This document shows positions 14,533-33,900 of a stretch of 42,074 nucleotides of DNA, in pieces (position 1 is the first letter of the stretch; every line of letters starts with the position of its first letter). A program made the translations under genes and the position numbers. This DNA comes from a virus. The notes below the pieces were generated by a model. The model had not been told where the DNA came from, made no database searches, and saw nothing but the letters and a program-made list of their open reading frames with translations. The DNA lies in IMG/VR virus record IMGVR_UViG_3300025617_001075, positions 1 through 42,074 of that record. The stretch is one strand, 5' to 3'.

Positions 14533-15773
14533 TACTTTTTGTCTTCCACTTCAGATATTTTCTGTTTAAGTAATTCTATCTCATCCTGTTGCAGTTTAAC
14601 TAACTCCAACACGAATCCCGACAAAAGTCCATAGTTAACCTTGTCTGGGTTGCCCTCTGCGTCGTACGTTACAACTTCCTCAAAACCCATTTCAATGAGC
14701 TCTTCAGCCATGTAACCGTGCATCCACTCTCTGTTTTTCTCAGCGTGGTTGTATGCTTTACTCCTTTTATACTTAAACTTTTTAAGAGTAAGATTTAAAA
14801 GCTTTTTGGGGTCAGATGGCTGGTGGTCTGAGATGTCAGTCTTGTACCGAACCGAAGAAGAGTCCCCAGATGTGGTGACATTGGCCGTGCGAAAGCTAGT
14901 CAAAGTTCCGCCCAAAGAATCTCGGGAGTAGTACCTATCCACGTACGAGTGACGGTGACCTTTGGTAGAAATTTGTCCAGTCTCTACTCTAATATTGTTT
15001 CCTGATTTTCTAATACCAAAACCAGTAGTTAACCCTGCGCTTACAATACTTGACGAAGTGCCAGAGGATATTTTGGCGTAGCTGACAGCACCATTAGCAA
15101 TTTTAGAGTTGGTGACAGAGCTGTTCGACAACTGCGTGCTTCCAACATTTCCAGACGCAATCTTAGAGCTTGTTACCGCACCGTTCTGAAGTTGGCTGGT
15201 CCCCACGGAACCGCTCTGCAGTTCAGCGTTCCCAATCGAGTCACTCTGCATGGCAAAATTCCCCACCGAGTTATTCTGAAGCGCACCGCTCCCAACAGAG
15301 TCGTTTTGAAGCTCGTCGCTCCCGACCGAGTCTCCAAGCATGTTTTCGTTGCCAACAGCATCGAGCTGTAAAGCGCGAAAACTTACAGAGTTTTCGTCCA
15401 GTGTGTCCTCACGGACAGAGTTTGGAATCATATTGATGTAGTCAATGGACTCTTCAGCCATTCGGTCATTCTCAATGGTGCCTATTGCAATCTTTTCATT
15501 AGTTACCGAAAGACCGATAAGCTCACTGGTTCCAACAGAGTTGTTGTCTATCTGAGCCTGCTTAATAGCGTCAGCTTGAATCTGGTCGTTACTAATAGCG
15601 TTAAGAGCAATTTGGTCGTTACTGACCGCCCTAGGCTGAAGCGCACTACGCACGACAGACTGATTACCCAAGGATGTGGGCGACGGCCTGTTTTGAAGAT
15701 ATCTAACCCTACGCTGAAGGTCTGAAATAGACCCCGTAAGACTCTGTCTGCTGGCTCTTCTTCTAGTTGCCAC
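14532..15773 (-). CDS. Tail fibre with decapeptide repeats and C-terminal S74 chaperone domain
   Basis: A 413-residue fibre. After a basic N-terminus it has about nineteen consecutive ten-residue units, then a GHRHSYVDRYYSR linker and a C-terminal intramolecular chaperone of the peptidase S74 type. The chaperone has SSVRYKTDIS at the start, then HGYMAEELIEMG, NYGLLSGFVLELVKLQQ and a terminal coiled coil. S74 domains trimerise the fibre and then cut themselves off at the Ser of S-D-x-R-[LY]-K; here the Asp is Ser. I choose the GTG at 15773 because GGAAGG lies nine bases upstream; the TTG at 15782 would have no spacing. The gene overlaps the minor tail protein by 11 bases. It is likely a receptor-binding or side fibre. 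Confidence 0.85.
   Translation of the reverse strand: MATRRRASRQSLTGSISDLQRRVRYLQNRPSPTSLGNQSVVRSALQPRAVSNDQIALNAISNDQIQADAIKQAQIDNNSVGTSELIGLSVTNEKIAIGTIENDRMAEESIDYINMIPNSVREDTLDENSVSFRALQLDAVGNENMLGDSVGSDELQNDSVGSGALQNNSVGNFAMQSDSIGNAELQSGSVGTSQLQNGAVTSSKIASGNVGSTQLSNSSVTNSKIANGAVSYAKISSGTSSSIVSAGLTTGFGIRKSGNNIRVETGQISTKGHRHSYVDRYYSRDSLGGTLTSFRTANVTTSGDSSSVRYKTDISDHQPSDPKKLLNLTLKKFKYKRSKAYNHAEKNREWMHGYMAEELIEMGFEEVVTYDAEGNPDKVNYGLLSGFVLELVKLQQDEIELLKQKISEVEDKK
15069..15638 (-). repeat. Nineteen tandem decapeptide units in the fibre shaft
   Basis: The encoded pattern is x-x-x-[SA]-[VI]-x-x-x-x-[LIM], repeated 19 times without a break from about residue 46 to 235 of the protein. Units such as QNDSVGSGAL and QNNSVGNFAM are close copies, others are diverged. 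This fits a triple-stranded beta-helical shaft whose length could change by 30-bp gains or losses. Confidence 0.8.
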
Positions 15774-17760
15774 TTTGGTCAACCTTCCAATCTGTCACTA
15801 TCTCTAAATCAACTATTTCGGGGAAAGACGGAGAATCTGGGACCTTAACCTTGTACGAGCTAATCTTTCGGATAAGCACGTCATCCCGAGGCTCCTGGTC
15901 TGAAGCAAGTCTTTGTTGGACAAAAGGGTCATTGATAATGATGGAGCACCAATCCCCAGGAAAGAAACTGCCCACCTCTGGAGATAGCGAACCGTTAACC
16001 GTGAGCTTGTATGTGCTTACGGGAGGCAAAGATTCGTACAAGTAGTCCTGAGCGTAAAGGTGCAAGCTCAACTCGTTCTCAATCTCGTCTAGCTGCTCAG
16101 AGAGGTCGAGAAGTGGCCAACTCTTTCCGTTTTTGTTGTCCAAAAGGTTTCTGGCTGCTGCTCCCGCATAGGGCTGACTTGCTTCGTTATTGAGGTCTTC
16201 TATGTTCCCAACAACAAAAAAGCGAGTAGCGGAATCTTCTGCGGTTTCGTCAATAGAAAAAGTTTCGATATTCCCTGGGTACTCGAAGACCACCTTTTCC
16301 GCACCGAATGCGGTGACGGGGTAGACGTCCCCTGGGGGAGGCGGGTCAGCTAAATCAATCGGGAACATTCGGAAGGTGCGAGTGAAAGAAGCAGTGTCGT
16401 AGTCGTAATCGCAGTCGATGCGGTACTCAAAACCGCCGTCAACAGTGTTCGAGTACTGCTCAAGGATTTCCCCCACAGTCTTCTGCTCAAAGCCACGGAA
16501 CACCTGAGTGTCTTGGTAGTAGCCACTCTTATCTAAGTTCTCAAAAGCAATGCCGACATCTGCGTTGGCAGTGTAGCTTCCGTAATCACCGTACACAGCC
16601 TTAGACCCAAACTGAGCGATGCCACCAGCAACCGTGCTCTCAGGCACGTTAAGAATCCCGCCAGAGCTAAAAGAGAAACTGTTCTCCGTGGGAACATCTG
16701 TTATAACAAATCTTCCGTTAAAAGTTTGGTCCAGCACTCCCGTGAAGAAAGAGTCAACTCCTGTCAAGAAAACTGTTTGCCCGACTGAAGCCCCGTGAGG
16801 CAGGTCCAAAGTAATAGTTGCTATGTTGTTCGTTAGCTCTTTTGTGACCACATTGAGTGTTCTAATTCCAGGCAGTGATGTTCTAGGAATGTCCGAACCA
16901 AACTGTTGGAACACGACTGTTCGACTGTCGGGAACGGATGACACTATGTGGAATCCGTCAATGTCGGAGTTAATTTCGAAAAGTTCTATTTCTTGACCAG
17001 GAATGATGTCATGGTCTTCCTGCGTCCTCAAAGTTACCGAGTTAGAAGACCGAGTGACCCGAACGATAGAAGCTTGAAATTCTTTAGCTGGCTTGATGAA
17101 CTCGTTGGCAAATGCAAGCCCACCCAAATCGGAGGAAAGTCGGAAGACCAAGTCTCTAGCCAAGTCGTAGCTGTCAACCATAAGACGACAAGCTCCACTG
17201 GTACTTTGTCCGCCCCCGTTGGCAGAAGTAGTGGTGAACTGAAACTGCGTAGCGGAAGGAACACTTGTGACTGTCTGAGTTCCGTCCACCAAAGGACTTG
17301 TGAAAGTTATACGGACAACATCGTCTACAGAAAACCCATGCGCCAACTCGGTGGTAACCGTAGCCGTGCCATCGCTTACGGAATACTCTGCAACTCCGAT
17401 AAAGTTTGACCCGTATTGGATTGTCTGCCAGATGTTGCGGTGGTAGAAGTAGCTGAGGAACTCCCCGCCGTCTACGCCAAGTTCTTGACTGTCGACAGAG
17501 TATGACCGAGACCAAACAATCCCACCCCAGACACAAACGCCATTTCGCATCACGTACAGCCCAGTTCGCCCAGGCATAGTGGCTTCGTAAAGATTTAGCC
17601 CTTCAGTGGCCTCCACGAAAGGAATTGTCCCCGAGAAGGAGCCAGCCCTGCGATTGGTTCGTTCGAAAGACACTCCCTTAAAGGGCACTTCCGAAATAAT
17701 CTCGTTGCTCATCAAGTCGGTCAGAAAATACCGATACTCGATATTCTTAACTATTGCCAT
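15763..17760 (-). CDS. Minor tail protein (tail hub/baseplate-like) with three inserted beta modules
   Basis: A 665-residue structural protein. The N-terminus (residues 1-120) has GVSFERTNRRAGSFSGTIPF and a CVWGGIVWSRSYS turn, typical of Gp37-like minor tail proteins of actinophages that follow the distal tail protein. The C-terminus (about 390-665) has GEILEQYSNTVDGGFEY, a VFEYPGNIETFSIDE segment and SPEVGSFFPGDWCSI, which is the usual hub-like end of this family. Between them lie three copies of the HGF-type beta module (about 125-187, 232-300 and 305-382), also present in the next two entries. The protein probably closes the tail tip around the tape measure. It follows the distal tail gene after 31 bases. 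Confidence 0.78.
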   Translation of the reverse strand: MAIVKNIEYRYFLTDLMSNEIISEVPFKGVSFERTNRRAGSFSGTIPFVEATEGLNLYEATMPGRTGLYVMRNGVCVWGGIVWSRSYSVDSQELGVDGGEFLSYFYHRNIWQTIQYGSNFIGVAEYSVSDGTATVTTELAHGFSVDDVVRITFTSPLVDGTQTVTSVPSATQFQFTTTSANGGGQSTSGACRLMVDSYDLARDLVFRLSSDLGGLAFANEFIKPAKEFQASIVRVTRSSNSVTLRTQEDHDIIPGQEIELFEINSDIDGFHIVSSVPDSRTVVFQQFGSDIPRTSLPGIRTLNVVTKELTNNIATITLDLPHGASVGQTVFLTGVDSFFTGVLDQTFNGRFVITDVPTENSFSFSSGGILNVPESTVAGGIAQFGSKAVYGDYGSYTANADVGIAFENLDKSGYYQDTQVFRGFEQKTVGEILEQYSNTVDGGFEYRIDCDYDYDTASFTRTFRMFPIDLADPPPPGDVYPVTAFGAEKVVFEYPGNIETFSIDETAEDSATRFFVVGNIEDLNNEASQPYAGAAARNLLDNKNGKSWPLLDLSEQLDEIENELSLHLYAQDYLYESLPPVSTYKLTVNGSLSPEVGSFFPGDWCSIIINDPFVQQRLASDQEPRDDVLIRKISSYKVKVPDSPSFPEIVDLEIVTDWKVDQSGN
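16615..17388 (-). repeat. Three HGF-type beta modules in the minor tail protein
   Basis: Three diverged copies: one with TATVTTELAHGFSVDDVV, one with SVTLRTQEDHDIIPGQEI, and one with IATITLDLPHGASVGQTV then QTFNGRFVITDVP. Each follows the pattern strand, [HD]G-x-x-x-G-x-x-[VI], F-[ND]-G, strand, V-P-[ST]-x-x-x-F-x-F. The third copy holds an extra eight or so residues before FNG. Confidence 0.7.
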
Positions 17761-17791
17761 CGTCTATCCTGTCGTTTTCGTTTTAAGTTTA

Positions 17792-20344
17792 TTAGCCAAG
17801 CCAGCCAGAACGATAATAAACACGCAGGGTTGCTTCACCTTCAGGGTTGCCTGTGTCTTCGAACTCGAGCTGATTAAACCCAGGAGCCAACTTGATGAAG
17901 TCAGCCAAAACATCGACACGACCTCTCGCGTTTTGCACGGAGCCGTTGAAAGCAACAACATGGTCTTTAGTGTCAATCTCTAGGATGTCGGCACTAACAA
18001 TTGCTGTAGCACCAGTAAGCCCAGGCGTGAACTGAACATCATTCTTTTTAATTGCGTTACCAGCAGCGGGCCTTCTGGAAATTACATTGGAAACGGCAGC
18101 AGAGCCAGACGAAGCCGCGAAGGGGAGGCTTCCACCCACCGTGGCCAACCCATCAGCAACGGCTGTTGACTCGATTGTTCCTGGCATCTCAAAGAAGCCA
18201 AAGTCTTTAATAACCTGTGCACCATTCGGGGCGTCTTCCTCAGGGACGTCCCCTCCACCAGGAGTCGAGTACGTCAAAGTGGTTGCGGAAGGCGTTGCAA
18301 TAATTGTGTACGTTCCGTTAAAGGAGTTGTCGATTCCAGTAACTCGAATCTCTTGCCCGACAGAATACCCATGGGCGACCTGCGTGGTGAGGGTTACAAT
18401 TTCGCTGTTACGCGCTGCCTTGTCAACAACAAAAGGCTCTTCCAAATCAATGTTGGGGTTAACCAACTCAAAGTTAATTACATTGAGGAACGGAATTGCA
18501 GTAATAGTGTGAGTCCCGTCGAAGGGGGCACCCATTCCAGTAATTGTTATTTCTTCACCAGAAATTGCTCCGTGAATAGAATCTGTGATGATGGTGGCAA
18601 CGTTACCGATAATCTCGCGATTTCGAATCTTTCTACTAAAAGCTCTAGCCTTACCGCCAGCGACAGTTGTCGACACTAAGTCAGCCGCAGTCTTGTCAAA
18701 AGTGAAGCTCGTGTTGCTGGGCAAGCTGGTTATCTCATATGTTCCATTAAATGTGGAGTCAACATCACTAATGGTTACCTGCTCACCAATCACAAACCCA
18801 TGAGCACTAGAAGTTGTAATAGTCGCAACGTTCGAGCTAATTGCCTTCACAGTTACGGCTATCTCAGTGGCGCGATTACGGAGATAGTTAAATGTGTTAG
18901 AAGTGACATCCTCGATGATGTACCCACCGTCCAAGGAAAGATTCACGCCAGAGATGTTTACTCCCTCGTCCGCAACAAACCCGTGGGCAGAGGACGTCGT
19001 AACGGTGACCAAATCATTAGTCATCTCTACAGTAGAAATTTCTCGAGAGTTAGTTCGAGTAGACGCGTATGTAAACGTGCTAGTGGTGGGAACGTTGAGG
19101 ATTTCAAAAGTTCCGTCATAGTTGACCCCAGCACCAGTGATGGTGACTTCCTCGCCCACAATGAACCCATGGTTTTGAGTCGTGGAGATGGTGGCAATGT
19201 TGGAGGTCAGTTGCGTTGAAGAAATCGACTGAGGGGAAGACCGCTGAGCCGAGTAAGTGAAAGACGTGCTCGAGGGAACAGAAAGGATTACCGCTTGCTC
19301 GGTGTCGAACAGAGCGTCCACACCGTTAACTACAATATCTTCCCCGACATTGAAACCGTGGTCTTCTGTGGTCTCCAAAGACGCGACACCGCTATCAAAA
19401 CTCTTGAACGACACAGACTCCACGTCTGCAGCAGAAGTGGTGAAAGTAAATGTAGTACTTGTGGGGACAGAGGTTATTACTTGGTCTCCATCAAAAGGAG
19501 CTCCGACACCAGAAACGTATACGCTGTTGCCGACCGAGAAATCGTGCGGCTCCGTTGTTGTGAGCTTGGCTATGTCTGTAAGAGAGTCAACATCGAAAGA
19601 CAGTTCTTTATTCACGATAGCTCTTGAAAGGCGACCTTTAAGGCTCTGCGTGATGAGAATTAATTCGTTGGTTGTCCTATTAAAAATAGTCCCAGGAGAC
19701 GCAAAAGGCCCCGTGACCTCCATGATGCAGGGAACATTGTAGTTACCAGAGTTTTGGACAACACCCTGTCCGTCATACCCAAGCTCGCTGTTTTTTACAG
19801 GGATTTCAGCAAAGTCATATCCGTCGGGAGCTGTTTCATTCCAAGAGTACTTAATCGGGTCAGGTGCCCTCAGGCCGATAGAGAACTCGGTGCGGCCTCT
19901 AGTGTTTACGGTATCGATAGACACGTCACCGCTGAGGTAGACATACGAAGCACGAATGGGGTTAGTCCCCGTCTTTAGCCACGCACCAGTGCGAACCAGG
20001 TCACACGCCTGGATAAGGCGGTCTCTAGCTGCCTCCACAAGCGCTGGGTCAGGAGCCAAGAAGACACCCTCAATAACGAGAGGACGTGAGTTGTACCTAC
20101 CAGCAACTTCGTATGCCCCATCACCAAAGCCGCGCTCAATGACATCTACGTCTGCAGGGGGCGGAGCCCACCAGTTCTCGATATCCGTGAGAACCCAAAC
20201 CACACCAGAACTGTCAATGGTGTTGAAAATAAAATCGCCGAGGACTACGTCACCGCGTAGCCGAAGCTTCTCGATTTCATTAGACTCGAGGTTTTGTAGA
20301 CCACGATTGACTGAATAAGCCTCATCAGCTGGTGTAAATACCAT
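17792..20344 (-). CDS. Distal tail (Dit-like) protein split by a seven-copy beta-module array
   Basis: An 850-residue protein. Residues 1-245 resemble the N-terminal part of Sipho_tail/Dit proteins: WWAPPPADVDVIERGFGDGAYEVAG-like, then RPLVIEGVFLAPDPALVEAARDRL, and GRTEFSIGLRAPDP. The C-terminal 100 residues resume the Dit galectin-like domain with ILEIDTKDHVVAFNG and FIKLAPGFNQLEFED, ending in YYRSGWLG. Between them residues 255-697 are seven tandem modules of about 55-70 residues. Dit forms the ring that joins tail tube to tip, so the array would stand out from the ring. Typical Dit proteins are 250-300 residues. The ATG overlaps the tape-measure stop (TAATG). Gene order after the tape measure supports the assignment. 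Confidence 0.8.
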   Translation of the reverse strand: MVFTPADEAYSVNRGLQNLESNEIEKLRLRGDVVLGDFIFNTIDSSGVVWVLTDIENWWAPPPADVDVIERGFGDGAYEVAGRYNSRPLVIEGVFLAPDPALVEAARDRLIQACDLVRTGAWLKTGTNPIRASYVYLSGDVSIDTVNTRGRTEFSIGLRAPDPIKYSWNETAPDGYDFAEIPVKNSELGYDGQGVVQNSGNYNVPCIMEVTGPFASPGTIFNRTTNELILITQSLKGRLSRAIVNKELSFDVDSLTDIAKLTTTEPHDFSVGNSVYVSGVGAPFDGDQVITSVPTSTTFTFTTSAADVESVSFKSFDSGVASLETTEDHGFNVGEDIVVNGVDALFDTEQAVILSVPSSTSFTYSAQRSSPQSISSTQLTSNIATISTTQNHGFIVGEEVTITGAGVNYDGTFEILNVPTTSTFTYASTRTNSREISTVEMTNDLVTVTTSSAHGFVADEGVNISGVNLSLDGGYIIEDVTSNTFNYLRNRATEIAVTVKAISSNVATITTSSAHGFVIGEQVTISDVDSTFNGTYEITSLPSNTSFTFDKTAADLVSTTVAGGKARAFSRKIRNREIIGNVATIITDSIHGAISGEEITITGMGAPFDGTHTITAIPFLNVINFELVNPNIDLEEPFVVDKAARNSEIVTLTTQVAHGYSVGQEIRVTGIDNSFNGTYTIIATPSATTLTYSTPGGGDVPEEDAPNGAQVIKDFGFFEMPGTIESTAVADGLATVGGSLPFAASSGSAAVSNVISRRPAAGNAIKKNDVQFTPGLTGATAIVSADILEIDTKDHVVAFNGSVQNARGRVDVLADFIKLAPGFNQLEFEDTGNPEGEATLRVYYRSGWLG
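18254..19582 (-). repeat. Seven tandem HGF-type beta modules within the distal tail protein
   Basis: Seven units with the pattern T-x-x-[AI]-H-[GD]-F-x-[VI]-G-x-x-[VI]-x-[IV]-[ST]-G-[VA], then F-[ND]-G, and V-P-[ST]-x-x-[ST]-F-x-[FY]. The clearest is unit 5: SSAHGFVIGEQVTIS with STFNGTYEITSLP. The pattern resembles the small beta domain that profile libraries label as the E1 FCCH domain in many phage proteins. Repeats are diverged in DNA. Confidence 0.8.
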
Positions 20345-23300
20345 TAGACCGAACCTCTTCTCATCTGGTAAGCAAGCTTACGCGACACGAGGTCTGCCAG
20401 CTCTCTTTCGTCCATTCCTGGTGACGGGTACACGTTGATAGTTGCACCAGCACCCCCACCCGTCAAACGGTCAATCATAGCTTTATCACGCCTAGACAAA
20501 CCGTCTGGGTCTAGGGGTTCGACACGCTCTGGACGCCCAGCCTCACCAATTGTTGCGACAACACCGCCAGGGGTTGCGGGGACAATTCCACCTTTAGCAA
20601 GTCTCGGTATATTGGGGATACTAAATTCTCTTCCTCCGATGAAAGGAACCCAATCGGGGATGTTGACTTTAAACTTGCCTGCAGTGTTGTTCCAGGCGTC
20701 AATGATGCCGTTGAATAATCCCTTAACAGGGGCGAGTAGACCTTCCCACAGCTTGACAAAGAAGCTCTTAAACCCTTCGAGGGCATTTTCGAAAAAGCCA
20801 ATTGCTGACTCAAAGTCACCTGTAAAGAGGGCCACAAAGCCCATATATACATTTGAAATAGCGTCAAATACAGTTTTAAAGGCGTCAAAGATTTTGAAAA
20901 CACCCGCAATTAGTCCCCCGATGCCACCAATAACGGCACTAATAATTCCAGCTATCAGAGGGACAAGTGTTCCCGAGAAGAAATCACCTAAGCGGCCAAA
21001 TATTTCATTAAACAGGTCGCCGAGACCCTGAACCCCTGGGAAGACGTCTTGAATTACACCATTAATGTTATCCATGGCACCTTGGATGGCTGCTCCAATG
21101 GCCTCAAAAGCAGCACCAAGCGAAGTTCTAAACGCTTCGCTGTTTGCGTACATAGCTACAAATATGCCAATAACGAGACCAGCAATACCGAGGAACCTAC
21201 CCAAAATTTTTGCTGCTACCTTGAGCGGGTCCACTATCTTCGCGCCAATTGGGTTATTTTTGAAAAAGAGGAATGGGGTGGCAAGCAAAAGAAGCGAGCC
21301 CGCCAACACCTCAACAAAAAACTTAGCGGCTCGGAAAGCTATACCAAGAGCAGCCACCTGAGCCAATATGGGACCGATGTTGTCAAATATAAGTTTGAAT
21401 GCGTCTGTCTCAGTGAAAGAAACAAATCTTTCCAAAAGCCCGTTTAGTGTCTCGAAGAAACTCTCGAGTGCTGTACTCGATGTCAGATTTTTGACTAGTG
21501 TCCCGAAATTTTGAATAAATGTGGCCAACCCCGAGACGGGACTATCCTCACCCTCCGTGAGGGCTAGGCCGACCTCCCTGAAGACTCCAATAAGACCGTT
21601 CTCCCCAGTGAAAGCAGTGAGCAAATCTTTTATTCCCTGGGTGGCCCCAATTTCCAGAAGCGCCCCACCAAGCTGAGCAATCGCGTCAAAAATAAGTAAG
21701 AAGTTATTCGCGAGGCCCGTAAACAAATCATCTAGGCTTCCATCATCAGCCATTCTCTGCATGGTTGCAAGAAAATCATCAGCCCTAGTTTGAAGGCCGC
21801 CGAGCAAAGTATCAGCCGCTCCACCCTCTTGGTTAATCGTCCCGCCAATAACTCCTAAAGCTTGGAAGAATGTTCCAATGACTCCAGCCAAGTTTTCAAA
21901 GTTTCTCTGCGCGTTACCAAGAGTCTCCCCCAGAGTGCTGGTTTCGCTGGTTAGGTCCTCTAAGAAGCTCAGGCTGGAAGATGCTGCCCACTCGCCAAAC
22001 GCTGTGATGAGGGGCTCGGCGGCTTCTAGAACAACTAAGAACGCCGAAGCCAGATTGACGGCAGCGGTGCCTAGGTTCCTCAGCAGGTCATTGTTTGTGC
22101 CGAAGACATTCTGTAGCCTCTCAAAGCCTTCCCCCGTAAACAAAGCAGTGGAGAGATTTTCTGCGAATTCCCCAACAATACCGCCAGTCTCCTGCAGAAT
22201 CGCTTGAATCGGACCACCAGCCGCAAGGAAAATTTCAAGAGCATTCGTAAGAGGGCCAAATAGGTCACGTCCTGCGGCAAATCTAAACTCTAGGAATGCG
22301 TCCCGAGAGTCCCGCAAAAACTCAACAAAGGCGATAGCTTCGGGGGACAGGTCTTTAATGGCTTGGGCGTATGCATCGATTCCGCCAGAAGCCGCTCGTG
22401 CCGCTGCCTGCTCGGCTTCTTTTAGTGCCTCTCGAGCTTCGGCGATGCGCCTGTTAAGTTCCCGCTCAGTGGTGCCCCCTGCCGCAGCTGCTGCCGCTGC
22501 TTCCGCTGCATCCTTCTGCGCTTCTGCCGCCTGTTGATAAGCCCTAGCCGTATCTATGGCAAGGTCGGCTTCTCTCTGCTGAGCTTTAGCCAAAGCCTCC
22601 TTGGCAGACAAAACTTCTTCGGAGCCTTCGACACCAGCCTTGGTGGCTGCGTCCTCTTCTTTCTTAAGGTCAGAGTTGTTGTCAATCGCTTTGCGGAGAT
22701 TTAGCTCAGCTTGGGCAAAAGCAAGCTCTGCCTCTTGGCGGGCTCGAGAATTTGGCGGGAGGTCTTGAACTGCTTGCAGCGAGTCCCTTGCTTTTTCAAA
22801 CTCAAGTCGCGCTTTGGCTTCGCTAATCGCAGCGCCTTCAACCTGGAACCTAAGTTGTTGAAGTTTCTCTACTGCTTCTTCCCTGGCTGCTGTAACAGCC
22901 AAAGTTGCATCAAGCGTTGCTCTCTGGGCTTCGTTGTATCCCCGCTGAGCCCTCTCAGCAGACAGAAGCGCATCAGCAGCCCCACGAGCCGCATCGGCAG
23001 CTCGCTCTCGGGCCGCAGCCAGCTCAGCTGGGGCCTCCTCTTCTAGTAGCCGCTTCAGCTTTACTCGTGCAGCGGTAACCCGCTTTAAAGCTGCTTCCTG
23101 AGCCCTACTGGCAGCAGCAGACCCTGCTTGGGCTTGGTTGGCAGCTTGCAAAGCTTGACCAACCCCGCCCAACGCAACTCTTGTAGTAATTGCCGCAGTG
23201 GCGACAGCCAGCAGCCCAGCGGGCAGAACAACTAAAGCCCTAGCAGCGTTCCCAACAGCGGCACCCAGAACAATTAGCCCACCACCCAGTGCACCAATAA

Positions 23301-23568
23301 TTCCCGCAAGTCCAATAAGTGCTGGCCCCAGGAACCTAGCCGCGTTGTTTACACGGCGGAACTCAACACGAGAAGCTTCTAAAGAGTTAGTTAATTCACC
23401 TAGCTTGCTAAGCACCTGAGGAGTGACCGCGTCAGCAAACCTGCCAGCAAACTGCGTTCCCAGCTTCTCGCCAACATTGGTAAGGCCGCTCAGGCCCTTG
23501 TTGAGGTCTGGAACAAACTTGCTCGTGAGTGCACGAACAGTAATAAAAGCACTACCTACTACTGCCAT
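20344..23568 (-). CDS. Tape measure protein
   Basis: A 1,074-residue protein, the longest in the tail module, lying directly after the two chaperone frames. Residues 1-140 carry hydrophobic segments (FLGPALIGLAGIIGALGGG). Residues 150-400 are a long Ala/Glu/Arg-rich coiled coil. The rest alternates helices and hydrophobic membrane-like stretches (GIAGLVIGIFVAMYANS, LIAGIISAVIGGIGGLIAGVF). The end has the common tail LAKGGIVPATPGGVVATIGE and an ERELADLVSRKLAYQMRRGS-like helix. Tape measure proteins set tail length at about 0.15 nm per residue, which gives a tail near 160 nm. No lysozyme or peptidase motif is evident. Confidence 0.92.
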   Translation of the reverse strand: MAVVGSAFITVRALTSKFVPDLNKGLSGLTNVGEKLGTQFAGRFADAVTPQVLSKLGELTNSLEASRVEFRRVNNAARFLGPALIGLAGIIGALGGGLIVLGAAVGNAARALVVLPAGLLAVATAAITTRVALGGVGQALQAANQAQAGSAAASRAQEAALKRVTAARVKLKRLLEEEAPAELAAARERAADAARGAADALLSAERAQRGYNEAQRATLDATLAVTAAREEAVEKLQQLRFQVEGAAISEAKARLEFEKARDSLQAVQDLPPNSRARQEAELAFAQAELNLRKAIDNNSDLKKEEDAATKAGVEGSEEVLSAKEALAKAQQREADLAIDTARAYQQAAEAQKDAAEAAAAAAAGGTTERELNRRIAEAREALKEAEQAAARAASGGIDAYAQAIKDLSPEAIAFVEFLRDSRDAFLEFRFAAGRDLFGPLTNALEIFLAAGGPIQAILQETGGIVGEFAENLSTALFTGEGFERLQNVFGTNNDLLRNLGTAAVNLASAFLVVLEAAEPLITAFGEWAASSSLSFLEDLTSETSTLGETLGNAQRNFENLAGVIGTFFQALGVIGGTINQEGGAADTLLGGLQTRADDFLATMQRMADDGSLDDLFTGLANNFLLIFDAIAQLGGALLEIGATQGIKDLLTAFTGENGLIGVFREVGLALTEGEDSPVSGLATFIQNFGTLVKNLTSSTALESFFETLNGLLERFVSFTETDAFKLIFDNIGPILAQVAALGIAFRAAKFFVEVLAGSLLLLATPFLFFKNNPIGAKIVDPLKVAAKILGRFLGIAGLVIGIFVAMYANSEAFRTSLGAAFEAIGAAIQGAMDNINGVIQDVFPGVQGLGDLFNEIFGRLGDFFSGTLVPLIAGIISAVIGGIGGLIAGVFKIFDAFKTVFDAISNVYMGFVALFTGDFESAIGFFENALEGFKSFFVKLWEGLLAPVKGLFNGIIDAWNNTAGKFKVNIPDWVPFIGGREFSIPNIPRLAKGGIVPATPGGVVATIGEAGRPERVEPLDPDGLSRRDKAMIDRLTGGGAGATINVYPSPGMDERELADLVSRKLAYQMRRGSV

Positions 23569-23583
23569 GTGTTCTCGCTTGTT

Positions 23584-24060
23584 CTATCCTGATGGTGGGT
23601 CAAGAGTTCCCCCAAATGGGTTCGGGCTGTCGGGGTTGAACTCTGTTGCTGGTACAAAGGGTTTTGTTGGTCCTTTTTCTGGCGCTAAGGGGTCATCAGC
23701 ATCTACACCGCCAACGAACCCGTCACTAAGTGGCTCGCCGCTAGCAGTAGTAGTACTATAATTATAGCTGTTGCTTGATGATTGTGACTTGTACTGATAT
23801 TTGTAATTTTTGTTATACAGAGACTGGTACATCTGTGTTCTAATATTAGATTTAGCCTCTGCCTCTTCTGCCGTAGCCATTTGATGGTCTACTTCAAAAA
23901 AGTAATGAATTACATCCAGCATGTCGCTGGAATCCATTTCAGTAAGTCTCAGCCCCCTAACTATGGCTTGTCCGTGCACATATGGCCAAAGGTCAACTGC
24001 CCATGCTAGGAGCCCGATGGCTCCTGTGTAGGGCGGGCGGAGTACTCCTCGACTAACCAT
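23584..24060 (-). CDS. Tail assembly chaperone, downstream frame (GT-like)
   Basis: A 158-residue reading frame directly before the tape measure. It overlaps the upstream chaperone frame by 55 bases in the -1 frame, the classic arrangement in which a ribosomal frameshift makes a longer fusion. Its first half holds LLAWAVDLWPYVHGQAIVRGL and MLDVIHYFFEVDHQMATAEEAEAK. The second half is low complexity, rich in Tyr, Ser, Asn and Lys, then Pro and Gly. I see no canonical X-XXY-YYZ slip heptamer in the overlap. The ATG at 24060 has GGGAG ten bases upstream, so an independent start is also possible. Confidence 0.75.
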   Translation of the reverse strand: MVSRGVLRPPYTGAIGLLAWAVDLWPYVHGQAIVRGLRLTEMDSSDMLDVIHYFFEVDHQMATAEEAEAKSNIRTQMYQSLYNKNYKYQYKSQSSSNSYNYSTTTASGEPLSDGFVGGVDADDPLAPEKGPTKPFVPATEFNPDSPNPFGGTLDPPSG

Positions 24061-24344
24061 GCCGTAATATCTCCCAGAGTTTCGACCGTAACAATAGTGG
24101 TCGGGTCGTTCAGGAGGGCATCAAACCTTGTGTAGCTTTCGGGCTTCAAAGCGGTAGCAAAGAATTCATTAATTGTTCTAGCTGCAGCAGCCCCATCGTC
24201 GTCAGAGCTGTTAGCCGCAAGCTCGAGAAGAGCGCGTCCCTGAAGGTTCGGGTGACAGTTAAACTCTTGCCCGTGCAGTTTAAACGAAATTGGCTCCTGG
24301 GAAACCTCTCCGCCTGCACCAAAATCTTTGAATCTGTTTGTCAT
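24006..24344 (-). CDS. Tail assembly chaperone, upstream frame (G-like)
   Basis: A 112-residue acidic helical protein located before the tape measure: SFKLHGQEFNCHPNLQGRALLELAAN, TINEFFATALKPESYTRFDALL and ETLGDITAWLVEEY. This composition and position are those of the upstream (G-type) chaperone of siphoviruses, which coats the tape measure during tail assembly. The ATG has GAGGAATAAC upstream. The last 55 bases overlap the next frame. A 62-base gap to the gp10-like gene holds a weak 5-bp hairpin only. Confidence 0.75.
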   Translation of the reverse strand: MTNRFKDFGAGGEVSQEPISFKLHGQEFNCHPNLQGRALLELAANSSDDDGAAAARTINEFFATALKPESYTRFDALLNDPTTIVTVETLGDITAWLVEEYSARPTQEPSGS

Positions 24345-24406
24345 GTTATTCCTCTATCTTTTGTCTAAGACGCCACATTTTGTAGTGCGTCATTGTTACT
24401 ATCTTA

Positions 24407-24790
24407 TCAAGTCCTTACTGACCTAAGAGCTCTCGTAAGATAGGGATTTGGCTTCGTGCCAGGGTGTCTGACCAAGTGCGTCATGACTATTTGACCCTTT
24501 GACTGGAAGCGTAAAACTTGTTTTTTATCGGGCTTAATTAGGTGGGGCCTAGACCCTTCGTGGTGTAGGTAGGCGTGCCTCACGTTGGAGCCAATTTTGA
24601 TGTACTGTCCTCGAGGGTCCCTGTAGTGTCGCATGTGCAGTGAAGACCTAAGAGCCCCCGTTCGCACTCCTACCAGCCTTTTAGCTCTGGCAAGGATTCT
24701 CCTACCCTTATTCCTAAGAAACACCCCAACTGGCAACTTGGGGTCCCTAAGGAACAAATCAATAGCTCGTCCGTTTATTTGAATATCCAC
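24407..24790 (-). CDS. HK97 gp10-like tail completion/minor capsid protein
   Basis: A 127-residue basic protein: FLRNKGRRILARAKRLVGVRTGALRSS near residues 24-50, IKIGSNVRHAYLHHEGSRPHL and a terminal HPGTKPNPYLTRALRSV. The order of GxL-R-x-S, a V-x-YA-x-xx-EGxRPH-type segment and H-P-G-x-x-P-x-P-[YF]-[LM] is that of HK97 gp10 family proteins, which sit at the head-tail joint or tail end. The start is GTG at 24790, which overlaps the stop of the upstream gene (TAGTG) and has no strong ribosome binding site, so it relies on coupling. Confidence 0.82.
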   Translation of the reverse strand: MDIQINGRAIDLFLRDPKLPVGVFLRNKGRRILARAKRLVGVRTGALRSSLHMRHYRDPRGQYIKIGSNVRHAYLHHEGSRPHLIKPDKKQVLRFQSKGQIVMTHLVRHPGTKPNPYLTRALRSVRT

Positions 24791-25296
24791 TACGGAACCG
24801 CCATGGTTAGAGTCATACGAGTTGTCTGAAACCCACCCTCGGGCTCATCAGCATCAATGGTCGCAATCACTCCAAGACCAAAAGGACCAGCCTCAGACCA
24901 AGCATCAAAACTGTTCATACTTTCCATCAAAATCCACGCATCAAGAGCCGAAACATAAGCGGCATCCTGGATATCATCAGCCCTAGGAGCTTGACCGTTG
25001 TTCTGAGTAATGGGAACAGCCCTAGCAATCTGCACAGAAATAGTTGCAGTCCTGGGGTCGTGGCAACGGCGAGGCTCTGTTGCTTCGTCTCCTGGGGTGC
25101 CCAGATACATCTGAATAAAGGAAACACAAACCTGTTCGCAATCCACCACAGGGGTAGCCATTGTGAAGTAGCGTCTGGTCGGCAGAGGCATACTGTAAGA
25201 CTCGTAGACAGAGATAACCCTGTTTAGAACTTCTTGCAGAAAATTAGCAAGGTTCTTAGCGTCGTCGCTTGCGCCGCTTACGTCAGTTAATGGCAT
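24790..25296 (-). CDS. Probable tail terminator protein
   Basis: A 168-residue protein. It has an N-terminal helix (NLANFLQEVLNRVISVYES), a central beta part (DCEQVCVSFIQMYLGTP, TATISVQIARAVP) and a C-terminal strand region (GLGVIATIDADEPEGGFQTTRMTLTMAV). This layout, and the place between adaptor and gp10-like genes, fits the tail terminator or tail-to-head joining proteins of actinophages. Four Cys residues (one pair DCEQVC) are present but not in a metal-site pattern. AAGGAAAAGAC precedes the ATG. The label rests largely on gene order, and another connector role is possible. Confidence 0.55.
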   Translation of the reverse strand: MPLTDVSGASDDAKNLANFLQEVLNRVISVYESYSMPLPTRRYFTMATPVVDCEQVCVSFIQMYLGTPGDEATEPRRCHDPRTATISVQIARAVPITQNNGQAPRADDIQDAAYVSALDAWILMESMNSFDAWSEAGPFGLGVIATIDADEPEGGFQTTRMTLTMAVP

Positions 25297-25312
25297 GTCT
25301 TTTCCTTAGTCT

Positions 25313-26452
25313 TTATGCAATTGCGATAGGTGTTACGCGGTCTCCCAGTTGGTATATAACATTACTTGTAAGTATATTGATAACTTCATCTACAGAAGGG
25401 TTGCCAAGACTCGGGCGGGTTGCATAAATGTCAAGAGTTCCTGGGTCTCTAGGCCCCAGTACGGCAAGAAGGTCTGAGTAGTTCGCGCTCAGGCGAATTG
25501 TTCCCTCGGTGTCATCGTAGAAAGCAGCATTCGCTAGAGTTTCTGTAGTCGTGTTGTTGAAGTTAGAAACAACCGCAGAAAGCTCCCAAGCGCTGTCATC
25601 TGCCAGGAAGTCCGCGCCAAGTTCGTTGGTGTAGTAAATGTTTGTCCCACCGTCTTGGTTGAAGTACAAGTCAAGTGCGCTGAGCTCGAAAGCTGGGCTC
25701 TTACCTGTGATGCGACGTGCACGGGGAACATCTGGGCTAAACACTCGAGAACGAGCTCTTGCCCTGTCGGGGTTGGCGACACGGAGGAACAAGTCAACCG
25801 CGTAAATTCCAGTCTTAAGCTCGTCAATGAAGTCTTGATTGTCAAGGACGGTGTAGCTCACGCCCTGGCGGACAACAGAAGTTACACGCTGGGGCAGCGC
25901 ACAGGTGTCATCGTCTTCATACAATTTGACAAGCTCATTGGCAAGAAGACGGGCTGCAGCTCTACCAGCCTGCGGAGGCGGAGAACCATATGTATATGTA
26001 ACTTCTACGTTGGCTGAAGTCCAGTTTGCGTTCGGCGTACCGTACACGGTTGAGTGGTCACTCAGGTAGTACGTGCTGGGGTCAATGATGTTTCCGTTGC
26101 CATCACGAAGGTTGTGGATTTTAACAACCTTACGTCCACGCAGTCGCACCCTCTGGTAAGAAGATGTTCCGTCCCCGAGGAAATCGTGGTGCGAGTATCG
26201 CGCCTGATTACCAGTAGGGATGTTCTCCACTTGACCGTTAATCAAAGTCGGAGTGTACCCCAGGCGGGAGCCATTAGCCCTGAGGTAGGGGTCATACATC
26301 GAAACGTAGCGCTCGGTAACAGTAGTAGTTCCCGTAAACTTACGACCAGACAGTCCCCACATAATGTAGGAAGCAGTCTTTACCGCCTCGTAGGCATAAT
26401 CAGAGTCGGCGTATTCGCCTAGGTCTTCAGTGTCTACCCAGAGGTTGCTCAT
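25313..26452 (-). CDS. Head-tail adaptor with long C-terminal extension
   Basis: A 379-residue protein. Residues 1-230 resemble the head-to-tail adaptor of actinophages: AYEAVKTASYIMWGLSGRKF near the start, then VTERYV, GRKVVKIHNLRDGNG, STYYLSDHSTVY, VEVTYTYGSPPPQAGRAAARLLANELVKLYEDDDTCALP-like and RVTSVVRQGVSYTVLDNQDF. After SRVFSPDVPRARRITG near residue 245 an additional domain of about 130 residues follows, rich in aromatic residues and beta strands, ending DRVTPIAIA. Adaptors are usually near 130-230 residues, so the extension is unusual; it may reach outside the neck. The ATG has GGAGACGC upstream. Confidence 0.75.
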   Translation of the reverse strand: MSNLWVDTEDLGEYADSDYAYEAVKTASYIMWGLSGRKFTGTTTVTERYVSMYDPYLRANGSRLGYTPTLINGQVENIPTGNQARYSHHDFLGDGTSSYQRVRLRGRKVVKIHNLRDGNGNIIDPSTYYLSDHSTVYGTPNANWTSANVEVTYTYGSPPPQAGRAAARLLANELVKLYEDDDTCALPQRVTSVVRQGVSYTVLDNQDFIDELKTGIYAVDLFLRVANPDRARARSRVFSPDVPRARRITGKSPAFELSALDLYFNQDGGTNIYYTNELGADFLADDSAWELSAVVSNFNNTTTETLANAAFYDDTEGTIRLSANYSDLLAVLGPRDPGTLDIYATRPSLGNPSVDEVINILTSNVIYQLGDRVTPIAIA

Positions 26453-26473
26453 TGCGTCTCCTTATTTATAAGT

Positions 26474-26526
26474 AAAGACGGGCAGCAGCGGAGTATCAAC
26501 ACACTCACGGCTAGCTGCCCGCCTTT
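26474..26526 (-). terminator. Terminator-like stem-loop after the major tail protein gene
   Basis: In the leftward RNA AAAGGCGGGCAGC pairs with GCTGCCCGTCTTT over 13 positions, with one G-U pair that would be an A-C mismatch in the opposite transcript. The inner 27 bases can fold further. The 3' arm ends in UUU, followed by ACUUAUAAAU. It lies 6 bases past the major tail protein stop, where many phages reduce expression of following genes. Confidence 0.5.
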
Positions 26527-26532
26527 AGCTAA

Positions 26533-27579
26533 TTAGGAAGTGGGGTCCTCAGACGATGCGATGATGAAGTCAATCGGGTTGTCTGGGTTGTAGTCATCCG
26601 TACCAGGAACGTTGTATCCCGAGGTCGAACCTTGGCTCTCGAAGTCAGAGACTGCGAGGTAACCGCGCTGACGCACAACCTCACCAGCAGGCGAGACAGG
26701 TGTCGAAGCGACATCTGCGTTCGTCTTGGCGAAGCGGAACGATGTGGTGGTCGGTGTAGCTGTGATGACGTGAGTACCGTTGAAGGTGCTGTCAACTCCA
26801 GTCACAACCACTGTCTGACCAGTCGTGAAGCCGTGTGCGGTTCCAGTTGTCAGAGTAGCGACGTTAGAAGTGAGAGACTTGTTGCTCACGGTGTTTGTGC
26901 TCTCTCCGAACCACTGGTGGAAGCCCTTCAGGCCCTCAGGTGCCCAGTCGCCACGTGCGTAAGCGTAGGGACGCTCTGTGGCAATCGGGTACTCCCAGCG
27001 GTCATCAAGACCACCAGCGAACGAAACGTTTCCAAGACCGTAGCCCTCGAACGTGTTAGCCAGCAGGCCGTTCTCGATAACGCGGTCACCGCTCTGGCGG
27101 AGCTTCGCGTAGGGGAAGACCCAGTAGAAGTAGGGGTTGGTGGAAGCACGCTTGCCGTCTTTAACAGCGAAGGACCAAACCTCGATAGCCACACCGTTAC
27201 CAGCGGGGTCATCACCGACGTTGGGGGCTGCCCAACCAATGCTCTGGTTGTCGGGGGAGGCGAAGCTTCCATAATTCTTACGGAGAAGCAGACCACCAGA
27301 CATCAGAGCAGTAAGCTCGGGGTCAGGCTCGCAAATAGCGATTTCCATGGTGATTCGCTTCAGAGTGTCGGGCGCTTTGTAAGACACGCAAATCGTGCCG
27401 TCAGCCGACTTTTCTGTGATTTCATCGCCCTCTTCGTACTCAGGGGTGAAAGAGGCTCGCAAAAACGCCGAGGTGGTGTAGCTGTCTCCTGGTTCGTTGA
27501 GGAGATTGCCAGCGGCGTCCAGTCGAGTGACTCGAATCGCCACACCTTGGACGCTGGCTGCGTAATCCTGTGTAGCCAT
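26533..27579 (-). CDS. Major tail (tube) protein with C-terminal beta module
   Basis: A 348-residue tail tube protein. Residues 1-230 have the actinophage major tail protein layout: an early GVAIRVTRLDAAGNLLN, then FTPEYEEGDEITEKSADGTICVSYK and APDTLKRITMEIAICEPDPELTALMSGG. NPYFYWVFPYAKL and the Gly/Phe-rich NTFEGYGLGNVSFAGGL follow. Residues 233-302 hold one copy of the HGF-type module found in the distal and minor tail proteins, after which the tail tube sequence ends. AAGGAG precedes the ATG. About three copies per tube ring would repeat down the tail. The gene lies before the adaptor and terminator genes, an uncommon order. Confidence 0.87.
   Translation of the reverse strand: MATQDYAASVQGVAIRVTRLDAAGNLLNEPGDSYTTSAFLRASFTPEYEEGDEITEKSADGTICVSYKAPDTLKRITMEIAICEPDPELTALMSGGLLLRKNYGSFASPDNQSIGWAAPNVGDDPAGNGVAIEVWSFAVKDGKRASTNPYFYWVFPYAKLRQSGDRVIENGLLANTFEGYGLGNVSFAGGLDDRWEYPIATERPYAYARGDWAPEGLKGFHQWFGESTNTVSNKSLTSNVATLTTGTAHGFTTGQTVVVTGVDSTFNGTHVITATPTTTSFRFAKTNADVASTPVSPAGEVVRQRGYLAVSDFESQGSTSGYNVPGTDDYNPDNPIDFIIASSEDPTS
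26674..26883 (-). repeat. Single HGF-type beta module in the major tail protein
   Basis: Residues 233-302 contain SNVATLTTGTAHGFTTGQTVVV, with a V-T-G-V-D-S-T-F-N-G core and ITATPTTTSFRF. It is a close match to units 5 and 7 of the distal tail protein array. Confidence 0.8.
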
Positions 27580-27610: not shown

Positions 27611-28525
27611 TTAGGTGTTGGGGATTGTCACTCGCATCGCAAAATGCATCGAGGGGTCAGAGAATACCGCTGCAGGGCGGTACGCTTTGATTCTCATGTT
27701 ATTAATTGTAACATCTGCACCTTGAGCCAAGTTTTCATTGACGATTTCAATTTTGCCAAGATGCACGTTAACGTGCCCAGTCGCATACATCCACTTGTTA
27801 GTGGCAGAAGCAGCAGCCCCTGTTGCACCGATTGGGCCGTTACCTGAGTATCCTGAGCCAATGACGACATGGGTTCCCAGACGTGTCATTGCACGGCCTG
27901 AACCCTCATCTTCGCCCTTTTTGTAGATAAGGCGAGAACCTAGATTTGAGGCAAGGTCGCGGGTCATGTGAATGACACCGTTCTCGCCTGTGGGGGAGCC
28001 AGCAATTGCCTGCTCCAAGTACATCAAAGCAACGCTGGGAGAAAATGCTCCAGCTACGGGAACCGTAGAAGCACCAGTCTTACTGAGGTACATGTTGTCT
28101 TCACCAGCGTCATAAACATCTGGTGACGTGGAGATGAGCCCCTGGGCGGCTTTGCCATCCCAGTACTCAAGCTCCAAAGCCTTCTGTGTGACAGCGTTGA
28201 GCTCTTTTACAACTCGAGCAAAACGGTCTTCACCAGGAAGGCTGAATGTGGAAGCAAAATCCTCAACATCGATGTAGAAAGGTCGATAGTTAAGGTGTCT
28301 TGCATCTGCTTGGTTGTCTGTCAGTTCCCCGTCAGCAACAACTGAGTCATTGACGGTGAGCAGACGAACAAAGGACGGCATTGAGTCAAACTCTTGGTCG
28401 AAACCACGGACCCAACGCTCGTCATAATCTCTGCCAGTGTGTTCGGTAACACGGGCAACGCTCAGGATTCCGCAGGGGGCAGGAGTCAGTTCTCCAGCGG
28501 GGTAAACTCCTCTGAATTGTGCCAT
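27611..28525 (-). CDS. Second HK97-fold-like capsid protein (candidate vertex/pentamer protein)
   Basis: A 304-residue protein. I do not have a firm family, but the layout looks like an HK97-type capsid subunit: an N-terminal arm, a helix VVKELNAVTQKALELEYWDG at about residues 105-124, a middle VALMYLEQAIAGSPTG, the strand GTHVVIGSGYSGNGP and a C-terminal AYRPAAVFSDPSMHFAMRV. Some actinophages encode separate hexamer and pentamer capsid proteins in adjacent genes, which would fit its place after the major capsid gene. A head decoration protein is the alternative. The ATG is preceded by AAGGAG farther up and AGGA just before. Confidence 0.5.
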   Translation of the reverse strand: MAQFRGVYPAGELTPAPCGILSVARVTEHTGRDYDERWVRGFDQEFDSMPSFVRLLTVNDSVVADGELTDNQADARHLNYRPFYIDVEDFASTFSLPGEDRFARVVKELNAVTQKALELEYWDGKAAQGLISTSPDVYDAGEDNMYLSKTGASTVPVAGAFSPSVALMYLEQAIAGSPTGENGVIHMTRDLASNLGSRLIYKKGEDEGSGRAMTRLGTHVVIGSGYSGNGPIGATGAAASATNKWMYATGHVNVHLGKIEIVNENLAQGADVTINNMRIKAYRPAAVFSDPSMHFAMRVTIPNT

Positions 28526-30920: not shown

Positions 30921-33900
30921 TTACGTGAGAAGTCGTAAAAGCTTCGACATCTCAGAGGAAATTTCAGACTGGCTGTAGTAATCTCCACCAGACATGAATG
31001 TGCGAAGTTCCTCTGTAGCAATGTCGGCATCTTCCTTGCCAATCTTGTCTTCGACTCGAGTGACCATGTCTTCCATCAAATCGCGCAGGGCGGGAGGTAC
31101 ATCGCTAAAGCGAATCTTCTCTGCATCCGCACCAAACGCGAAAGGCAAGTTAGAAATAACCTCTCCAAGCTGACCAGCAGAATTACGAACGTTTTCTAAA
31201 GCTTCAGGATTAAGCGCTTTAGCGTCCAATCGGTCAATAATTCCGATTAATTCCTGTGCAGATTCCACTGCTTGGTCGTAGTTTCCAGCGCTGTCAAGGT
31301 TCTCGGCTTCTTCAACCTTCTCCACGACATCCTGTAAACCAGACTTACCAAGGTCAGTCTTGAGGCGAGCAAGTACCTTGCGGAACTTGCCTGAGGCGTC
31401 ACGGGGCTGAGTCTCAGGGGTGTACTTCCCCTTTTCTTCGCCACGTTTGCTGTCTGCCTTCTGCTTTTTGGCTTCCTGCTTGAGAGCCTCAATTTCTTCA
31501 GGCTCCAAGTCCTTCAAATCCTCATCATCGGCCCCAGCGGCGGTCAAAACCTCTTCTGAAAAAAGTGCTTCAGAATTTAACGATTTTAAGGCCAATTCTG
31601 CTCGAATCCGCAATTCATTAGTTGGCTCCATAGAAGCAGCAACAGCAGCCACACGCTCGTGCAGCGAAAGCTCTTCGCCCTCGGCGTTGTACTTAGTGCT
31701 CCACTTCGGCGGAATCAAGTCCTGCTTCTTGAGGCGTCGGGCACTACGCATGATGTGCTTACGCACTGCGGCACGCGAGCCAGGCTTGGAGCGCCCATAC
31801 GCTTGAATAGCATTCTTCAAATCGTTGACGTTACGAATCGGGTACGAGCCATCAGGCATTGCCTTGCCCTCTTTAGCGAGACGCTCACGAACACGGCGAG
31901 AGACAACAGCTGTTTCATTCTCGCCATCGAGCATCTCAATCATGTAGGCCCAGTCGCCCTCTTCGATGGTGTCCTTAACCTGCTTCACCTTCGCAGCAAG
32001 CTCTGCTGTACGAGCAGCGAACACTTCCTGACGCATAGCCGAGAAGCGTGATTTAGCATCCTCTACCTTTGGAGCGTACTGAGCCGTCTCGAGGTCTGAG
32101 ACCTTCTGGTTTAACTCTGCGAGCGGGTCATACTTCATCTGAGCCAGAGTGTTCGCACCAGCTGCAACCAAAGCCATAACCTGGCCAGAAGCAACACGAG
32201 CACGAGCAATTGGGAAGCCAGGTACATTCACCTGACACACCGCTACTAGCTCAAGACGACCCTTAATCGGACGCCAGTCTCCAGAAGGAGCCGATGCCCG
32301 AGCAGCGCGAATTTGCTCTGGGGTGGTACCAGGACGCAGAGAACCAGCAACCCAGATTCCAAAGGCGTCCTCGCCAGCGTGGACATCGGCAAAAGCGGAA
32401 GCTGTGTCGTCATAGTGCTTCACTGCGGCTGAAGCGTCTGCTTCCATCCCAGCGTGCCCACCCGCAAGAGTGAGCTGACCAACGGGAACATCGGTACCCT
32501 CTTCGGTCTTAAGAGCTCCAGTGTGGAAATAAGCGTAGTTGCTACGGCTCCGAGGCGGACGAGTACCGCTAGCCATACCAATGTGGTCAACGTGCCAGGC
32601 AGCGATGTGACCAAAAACTTGCCCATCATCCGTAATCGTCAGAGGGGTTGCCTTGTCAAGCTTGGGGTTGTTAAACCAATCCTTGGGCGGGGCAACAGGA
32701 ATTGCTCCTGCGACCATACCGCAAGCGACCAAAGCGGACGCGTCTAGTGGGTTCACCCCATCGACGTAGATTCCGTCTGGCTGCATTACTTCCTCCTCAA
32801 CGTCGCCGCTTTCGTCAGCGACTTGGATATAACATTCTTGAAATGCAGGTTTAGGCACAATTGTTACAGCCATAATCCTTGCACTTCTAATATTTATTTT
32901 ACCTGACTCTTTTTCTAGTGTTTCACCAGTGTCTTCGTCAGTCATCTGAATAATTTCTGGTTCGTCTGCTTCGAACTTGTCCATGTCAGCAGACACCCCA
33001 CGAATAAACCCGTGGCGGACAAGACGCTCAGCTTCCGTTCCAAACTCACCGATATCGAAATATCCGTAAGCATTTCCGATGCCGCCCTCGATACGTTCCA
33101 TGTGGACAATCTGTCCGACAACCACGGAGCCATCGTGACCCTGCCCTGTCTTAATCTGCCACAGCAGGGGGAGCGGAAGGTCTCGCATAGTGATGGAGTC
33201 CTTCTCAAAGATGCGACCGTCACCAGTCTCTGTCTCCTCTGGAATAACCAGCGGAATAACAAACTGAGAACCGTGCTGAGTTGGTTTAGGTCCCTCTCGA
33301 CCAACCAAGCGGGAGCGGGCTGACTCAGCCCTGGCACGCAAAGTAAACTCTTCAATAATGCTCTGCGAAGTCTTCAGGCTCTCGAGCTCACCAGAAGAAC
33401 GCAACGCCTTCTTCTTTTTACCAACGTTGCGCTTGTCTCCAGGCCACACGCCAGTCATTTCTTTGTGGCGGAGAGCACAGTAGCCCTTTGCTCGGGGACC
33501 CATGTACTTCTTGAGATAGCGGTTACAGCGGGTCCAGTCACCAGGAGTGTTCCAGCGAATCTTGAGGCCACCCTTGCCAACAGTCCAGTAACGGCGAAGC
33601 TTCTCGGCGTTACCACGGTTGCGGTCAGCCCCACCAGCAGCCATAATCGCTCGCAAAGTGCTGTTATTGCTAAGAGCAACTGCGCTTGCGGCAACGGCGT
33701 TTGTCCCGTCAATCTGCTCGACCACGGCTGATAAGTTTTCATTGTCGAGAACAACAACAGGCGGAGGAGTGGGGCTGTTAAGGTCGGCGAGAATCTTCTC
33801 GTCTTTAATCCACTTACCCTCGCGGCGTTTGAATGCCGCAGGAGAGATGCTCTTTGTACTGGCAGGAACCAAAGAGATTAGCTCCATGACTGCCTGAGGG

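Follow-up and report, generated by a model that had tools for sequence, protein, structure and literature searches.

Small beta domains that are added to several exposed virion proteins are known from the Ig-like decorations of lambda gpV, T5 pb6, SPP1 gp17.1* and Douge MCP/TTP (PMC8718954, PMC13033339), which are dispensable in some phages and for which a touch on host glycans has been proposed or shown. In the mycobacteriophage Douge, the Ig-like domains on capsid and tube bind host glycans (PMC13033339). A comparable arrangement is found in lactococcal 936 phages, where CBMs on the distal tail protein (Dit), the tube and the neck bind host cells (PMC6669499). The beta-barrel of the K1F endosialidase represents one of three polysialic-acid sites of this protein (PMC12632334).

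The window, which is the whole stretch of DNA that was analysed, is a 42-kb virus fragment from IMG/VR. One module of about 62 residues occurs eleven times in three of its tail proteins: seven times in the Dit, three times in the hub and once in the tube. This distribution had been claimed in the earlier note and was found again at the positions given there, with end points lying tens of bases off the profile boundaries. We regard it as probable that the eleven copies are one E1 FCCH-like beta domain, used as virion surface decoration in a large group of actinobacterial siphophages. The genes and modules concerned are the following; a tape measure protein is encoded between the tube and Dit genes.

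15763..17760, minus strand: gene of the tail hub / minor tail protein, 665 aa, matching phrog_1885 minor tail protein (E 2e-25)
16663..16854, minus strand: hub module 3, residues 303-366, profile match, with an extra loop of 8 residues
16897..17073, minus strand: hub module 2, residues 230-288, profile match, the copy that diverged most
17221..17400, minus strand: hub module 1, residues 121-180, profile match
17792..20344, minus strand: Dit gene, 850 aa, its C-terminal half containing seven modules in tandem
18257..18430, minus strand: Dit module 7, residues 639-696, profile match
18458..18634, minus strand: Dit module 6, residues 571-629, profile match
18683..18862, minus strand: Dit module 5, residues 495-554, profile match, among the Dit copies the nearest to the tube module
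18869..19045, minus strand: Dit module 4, residues 434-492, profile match
19055..19231, minus strand: Dit module 3, residues 372-430, profile match
19241..19420, minus strand: Dit module 2, residues 309-368, profile match
19427..19600, minus strand: Dit module 1, residues 249-306, profile match
26533..27579, minus strand: gene of the tail tube (major tail) protein, 348 aa, matching phrog_792 major tail protein (E 3e-22)
26716..26895, minus strand: tube module, residues 229-288, profile match, with AlphaFold2 pLDDT of 94-97 over about residues 230-300
27611..28525, minus strand: phrog_779 gene (function unknown) beside the tube gene, without the module in the window

Relatives of the tube gene carry the annotation major tail protein. 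The hub protein reached 13.6 bits with Pfam Prophage_tail, which is under the cut-off of 31.3. The relatives comprise DSL-LC01, originating from a lake metagenome with Actinomycetia as predicted host (PMC10611076), and the Microbacterium phages Pumpernickel, Cece, A3Wally, Big4 and Zooman; IMG/VR adds several hundred more, with 436 to 508 loci whose tubes are related. The phage group is abundant in freshwater and soil and, judged from these relatives only, the window virus is taken to be actinobacterial. No phage record matched the region in a Megablast search, and a scan of IMG/VR with a Gordonia tube found no relatives. Among the other genes of the window, the head-tail adaptor (25313-26452) has about 380 aa in this group compared to about 210-290 in other relatives, and no match was found for its extra C-terminal 130 or so residues. 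At 23584-24344, two overlapping frames, possibly a programmed frameshift pair, stand where DSL-LC01 has tail assembly chaperones. A 1,647-aa protein (30921-35864) matching portal and head maturation protease families is perhaps a fusion.

The likeness of the modules extends across the three genes. Pairwise identity among the copies of the window is 18-57%. A profile built from the four non-Dit copies matched each of the seven modules in the Dit, with E values from 6e-11 to 2e-18; a profile from Dit and tube copies matched the three hub copies (E 1e-9 to 2e-15), and a profile from Dit and hub copies matched the tube copy (E 6e-23); in leave-one-out profiles, the copies obtained E values of 1e-11 to 9e-25. 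Not a single profile match was obtained with 2,100 shuffled versions of the Dit, hub and tube proteins. The plain motif was counted 6, 3 and 1 times in Dit, hub and tube, against shuffle means of 0.02, 0.014 and 0.008. A search of the other open frames of the window did not find a twelfth copy. Concerning the H-G-F signature described earlier, 96% of 369 modules have the H, but the signature proved looser than thought, as the F after HG is present in only 54%; further conserved positions in this set are G26 (86%) and G40 (94%).

Structure prediction, which the earlier note had proposed as a check, was run for the Dit and tube copies. In the AlphaFold2 model of the Dit (32 Dits, mean pLDDT 87.5), all seven modules repeat one order of strands with a period of about 62 residues, so that one fold is predicted for all of them and the modules are predicted to form a bead-string. 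In the tube model (59 tube sequences), the module is the confident part, whereas the tube core is poor, with pLDDT mostly below 50. Foldseek comparison of the tube model with the PDB delivered the ubiquitin E1 enzymes UBA1 and UBA6 as top solved matches with a probability of 1.00 (E 4.9e-4 for UBA1, 6dc6), followed by the phage endosialidases phi92 (4hiz) and endoNF (3gvj), again with a probability of 1.00. Foldseek gives no aligned residues; that the module is the matched part follows from the length of 89 columns and from its being the sole part of the tube model that is predicted with confidence. The assignment of the E1 match to the FCCH region is likewise derived from the 89-column length and from Pfam, and the match presumably concerns one particular domain of the endosialidases. 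An Ig domain was absent from the first 50 matches of the tube model, which argues against an Ig fold, and FN3/plexin matches of the Dit bead-string stayed below a probability of 0.5.

The label E1 FCCH, suggested previously from the sequence, thus fits at the level of the predicted fold. Pfam E1_FCCH (PF16190) matches 23 of the 32 Dit relatives with a best E value of 2.4e-10; in the window, the Dit remains below the gathering cut-off (18.3 bits against 29.5) and tube and hub have no match. Matches of Pfam End_beta_barrel (PF12195) are marginal (two of 32 Dits and one of 59 tubes, best E 5e-4) and were not obtained with the window proteins. Since a profile of 28 modules found nothing below E 0.19 among PDB sequences, the links to E1 enzymes and endosialidases rest on fold comparison and on the Pfam matches of relatives. 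A search of NCBIfam gave no matches, and a literature search for FCCH domains in phage tails found no paper.

The carrier protein with the seven modules has both the profile and the fold of a Dit. The product of 17792-20344 matches Pfam SPP1_Dit with 29.1 bits (cut-off 25), as do all 32 relatives, and its model was matched by Foldseek to the SPP1 Dit (2x8k, probability 1.00, TM 0.58 by target) and to the tail tip of mycobacteriophage Bxb1 (9d93, probability 1.00), among others. The insertion is located in the C-terminal half, ahead of the strand DILEIDTK, and is unlike BppA.

The comparison of relatives allowed us to read the module as present or absent at fixed sites. The tube of DSL-LC01 is 73% identical to that of the window and cleanly lacks the module: it reads GFYTWNSTTGAYTAVSDF where the window module stands between GFHQWFG and YLAVSDF. 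Three outgroup tubes without the module end at that point, and the tube core recurs in Arthrobacter and Gordonia phages, again without the module. In these alignments, the tube copy occupies a loop near the C-terminus that is empty in the 73%-identical relative. When the insert states are placed on a tree of 72 tube cores, at least eight changes are needed, so this site gained or lost the module repeatedly, the direction not being readable from change counts alone. The Dit carries between zero and seven full copies across relatives; in alignment, the seven copies of the window fall on the C-terminal-half site that holds one copy in DSL-LC01. Hubs of relatives mostly have 2, 3 or 5 copies. The phrog_779 protein carries the module in 16 of 177 relatives (e.g. 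L133:8854-9951), flanked, in those that were read, by GSGYxGNGP and KWIYATG. Its gene follows that of the major (hexamer) capsid protein, which suggests a candidate role at the capsid vertex. Roughly ten further modules are present in WJZ48558.1 of DSL-LC01 (L217:10222-18783), a protein of 2,853 aa from the second fibre cassette; its annotation as 'ALK tyrosine kinase receptor' looks wrong, and it is rather a multi-module virion protein. Several exposed virion proteins thus carry the module, and relatives dispense with it.

A different arrangement was detected in the Microbacterium phages, in which the profile is matched by halves. The A half consists of the first three strands (..NVATLTTxxHGFxxGDxVTVxG) and the B half reads ..FNGTYxIxxxxxTTFTYAKT. 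A first scan for these halves was insensitive to B, with 120 of 205 proteins balanced and one B half of the window Dit missed; with improved profiles, 309 of 364 proteins were balanced, and the nests were subsequently identified by visual inspection of alignments. The Pumpernickel hub (gp97, L002 23013-27362) has six A halves followed by six B halves, and five aligned hubs line up across this stretch, with a first A half that is degenerate in some. About six A and then about six B halves were also seen in the hub homologues of L003-L006, L223 and L224. The Pumpernickel Dit gp95 (L002 16997-20686) comprises seven A halves, two B halves and a stop, and its Pfam Dit profile ends at position 90 of 97, just ahead of the nest. 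The following gp96 (L002 20714-22960) contains four FN3 domains, then five B halves and finally the last Dit strand once more (..LDIKFRSGWAG); gp96-type proteins end with RSGWxG, like whole Dits. The gap between both genes contains the stop, a Shine-Dalgarno-like AGGA and an ATG. The same split gene pair is present in L003-L006, L223 and L224. A sequencing error or a frameshift fusion was considered for the split Dit and rejected, given seven phages, frames that do not overlap and the start signal in the gap.

The numbers of A and B halves are equal only when both genes are summed, which holds for all seven phages, these being related and their counts not independent events: Pumpernickel, Zooman and L223 arrive at 7/7, and a sum of 8/8 is reached by Cece, A3Wally, Big4 and L224, one A half of Cece coming from the first, less sensitive scan. 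The additional pair is the innermost one. In A3Wally, Big4 and Cece, a complete module separates HGFSVGDKIDI from FNGTKVVE; in Zooman and Pumpernickel, these two stretches follow each other directly. The order is thus nested (A1..An Bn..B1) in these Microbacterium-type relatives, in contrast to the window Dit, which is plainly tandem, (AB)x7. Several IMG/VR tubes (L199, L137, L144, L145, L197) read A A B B, often with another module after it.

From this order of halves, it is likely that in these relatives the module inserted recursively into itself, seven or eight levels deep in the Dit and about six in the hub, that the Dit was split in the middle of the nest and that a two-chain zipper holds the FN3-bearing protein on the Dit ring. 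Repeatedly, a module would have entered another one at the loop that joins strands three and four, and the Dit would later have been divided into two genes inside the nest. With such a split, the two gene products must associate, their modules assembling from two polypeptides; the outer five modules and the last Dit strand would each form from both chains as a multiple split-domain zipper. If true, a protein would be cut into two genes and still joined by several split domains at once, and the nests would exceed the six levels that a 2026 survey of domain insertions gives as the record (PMC13114784). The nested, gene-split form is a more surprising lead than the decoration of the window itself.

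Regarding the origin of the copies, short repeats rich in T, S and V are common in phage tails, and the modules might be taken for convergent low-complexity beta repeats, alike without a common origin. Against such convergence stand the matches of profiles across genes with E values down to 1e-18, the lack of any match in shuffled sequences of the same composition and the single fold predicted for all seven Dit copies, and we consider it refuted and its probability negligible. The profile matches argue instead that the eleven copies are homologous and share a common ancestry, and consequently some movement between genes must have happened. In this sense, the duplication and transfer within the genome proposed by the earlier note is retained for the deep past. 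A recent spread between genes of this genome could be seen in the homology of all copies, in the 54-57% identity of the tube copy to Dit 5 and hub 3, in an L190 tube module whose closest counterparts are Dit modules of other phages, and in the modules that relatives carry in the neighbouring phrog_779 gene. The latter two are possible cases of later exchange. However, when 237 modules from 27 phages were compared, about 92% found their best match in the same gene and at the same position of another phage, and 340 of 369 non-redundant modules match their own gene class best, with unanchored proteins counted as a single class. The module tree requires 24 changes of gene label compared to 152-171 in 50 shuffles, which is the grouping by gene that the earlier note itself had held to speak against its proposal; with 61 columns, the deep branches of this tree are weak, and it is not used for the order of the oldest transfers. 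Within the window, the closest pair from different genes scores 0.55, against 0.94 for an orthologue. Recent duplication or transfer is therefore largely refuted for the window copies and is very unlikely. Each of them has, by these comparisons, its own orthologues in other phages. As copies group by gene and position across phages, the duplications are older than these phages: modules would have spread among tube, Dit and hub before the phages diverged, and gain, loss and multiplication at fixed sites would have followed.

Sequence divergence is faster in the modules than in the surrounding parts of their proteins. Mean identity is 85.6% for the tube core and 70.4% for its module, 77/66% for the N/C parts of the hub and 54-58% for its modules, and 63/70% for the N/C parts of the Dit and 49-61% for its modules. 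Relaxed constraint could be the cause. A role in surface decoration is suggested by the exposed loop sites, the dispensability, this fast divergence, the endosialidase-like fold and the analogues with other folds. The chain ends of the module presumably lie close together, which would allow insertion into an exposed loop with the carrier protein left undisturbed. Each Dit ring would display 42 modules (6 x 7), and every ring of the tube would add six. Touching host surface glycans at numerous points, each contact probably being weak, these modules might retain the virion close to the cell while the tip searches for its receptor. Glycan binding is plausible by analogy, because the fold matches endosialidases and because Ig-like and CBM decorations bind host surfaces (PMC13033339, PMC6669499); if present, it would be expected in the variable loops of the module. 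That an FCCH-like fold need not bind sugars is evident from the E1 match. The main rival sees in the modules structural spacers or rods, which stiffen or extend the periphery of the tail and hold other domains off while binding nothing. The long arrays and nests on Dit and hub of the Microbacterium phages, from which an FN3-bearing polypeptide emerges, indeed look like a stalk, and the conserved residues look structural. The pattern of H, G and T in the module is also that of E1 enzymes, and these positions are for this reason probably structural. On the other hand, the single copies in tube and phrog_779 are unlike stalks, and presence or absence among close relatives indicates that assembly has no need of the module. 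A spacer function is thus possible, with about one chance in three in our judgement, and may be combined with the decoration that we favour. Since presence and absence form clean pairs, the role of the module is directly testable.

If decoration is correct, a niche usually ascribed to Ig-like domains and CBMs is filled throughout the virion by a different small fold, which is common to a domain of eukaryotic enzymes and resembles endosialidases. Compared to the Ig-like decorations, the module is predicted not to have an Ig fold, its nearest solved structures being E1 enzymes and endosialidases. It sits inside a tube loop with a conserved C-terminal tail after it, whereas the Ig-like ones are terminal, and it occurs in up to seven copies on the Dit. 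With evolved Dits and the CBM-decorated 936 lactococcal phages (PMC7291167, PMC6669499), it shares the insertion into the C-terminal part of the Dit, and in both cases tube and Dit of the same virion bear related modules. Evolved Dits are characterised by a CBM in loops of the galectin-like C-terminal domain and by binding to the host cell surface; those reported contain one or two CBMs, often of the BppA fold, whereas the window type has a different fold, with as many as seven copies in tandem. With the E1 FCCH domain (PF16190), the fold appears to be shared and the profile match ranges from weak to good; there is no E1 context, the window proteins are under the Pfam cut-off, and the function is surely different. 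The endosialidase beta barrel (PF12195) is likewise a beta module of virions and belongs to a sugar-binding protein, but identity is very low and the module proteins contain neither propeller nor enzyme. Finally, the nests of the relatives have their counterpart in Si3 of cyanobacterial rpoC2 (RNA polymerase), a nesting reported as six-level (PMC13114784), which has the same module-in-module pattern (A1-B1-C-B2-A2), and both elaborations are associated with a gene split. In contrast to Si3, the nests of the relatives would be built from a single module at seven or eight levels, with a split that passes through the nest itself. No nest was found in the window, whose Dit carries its modules in tandem.
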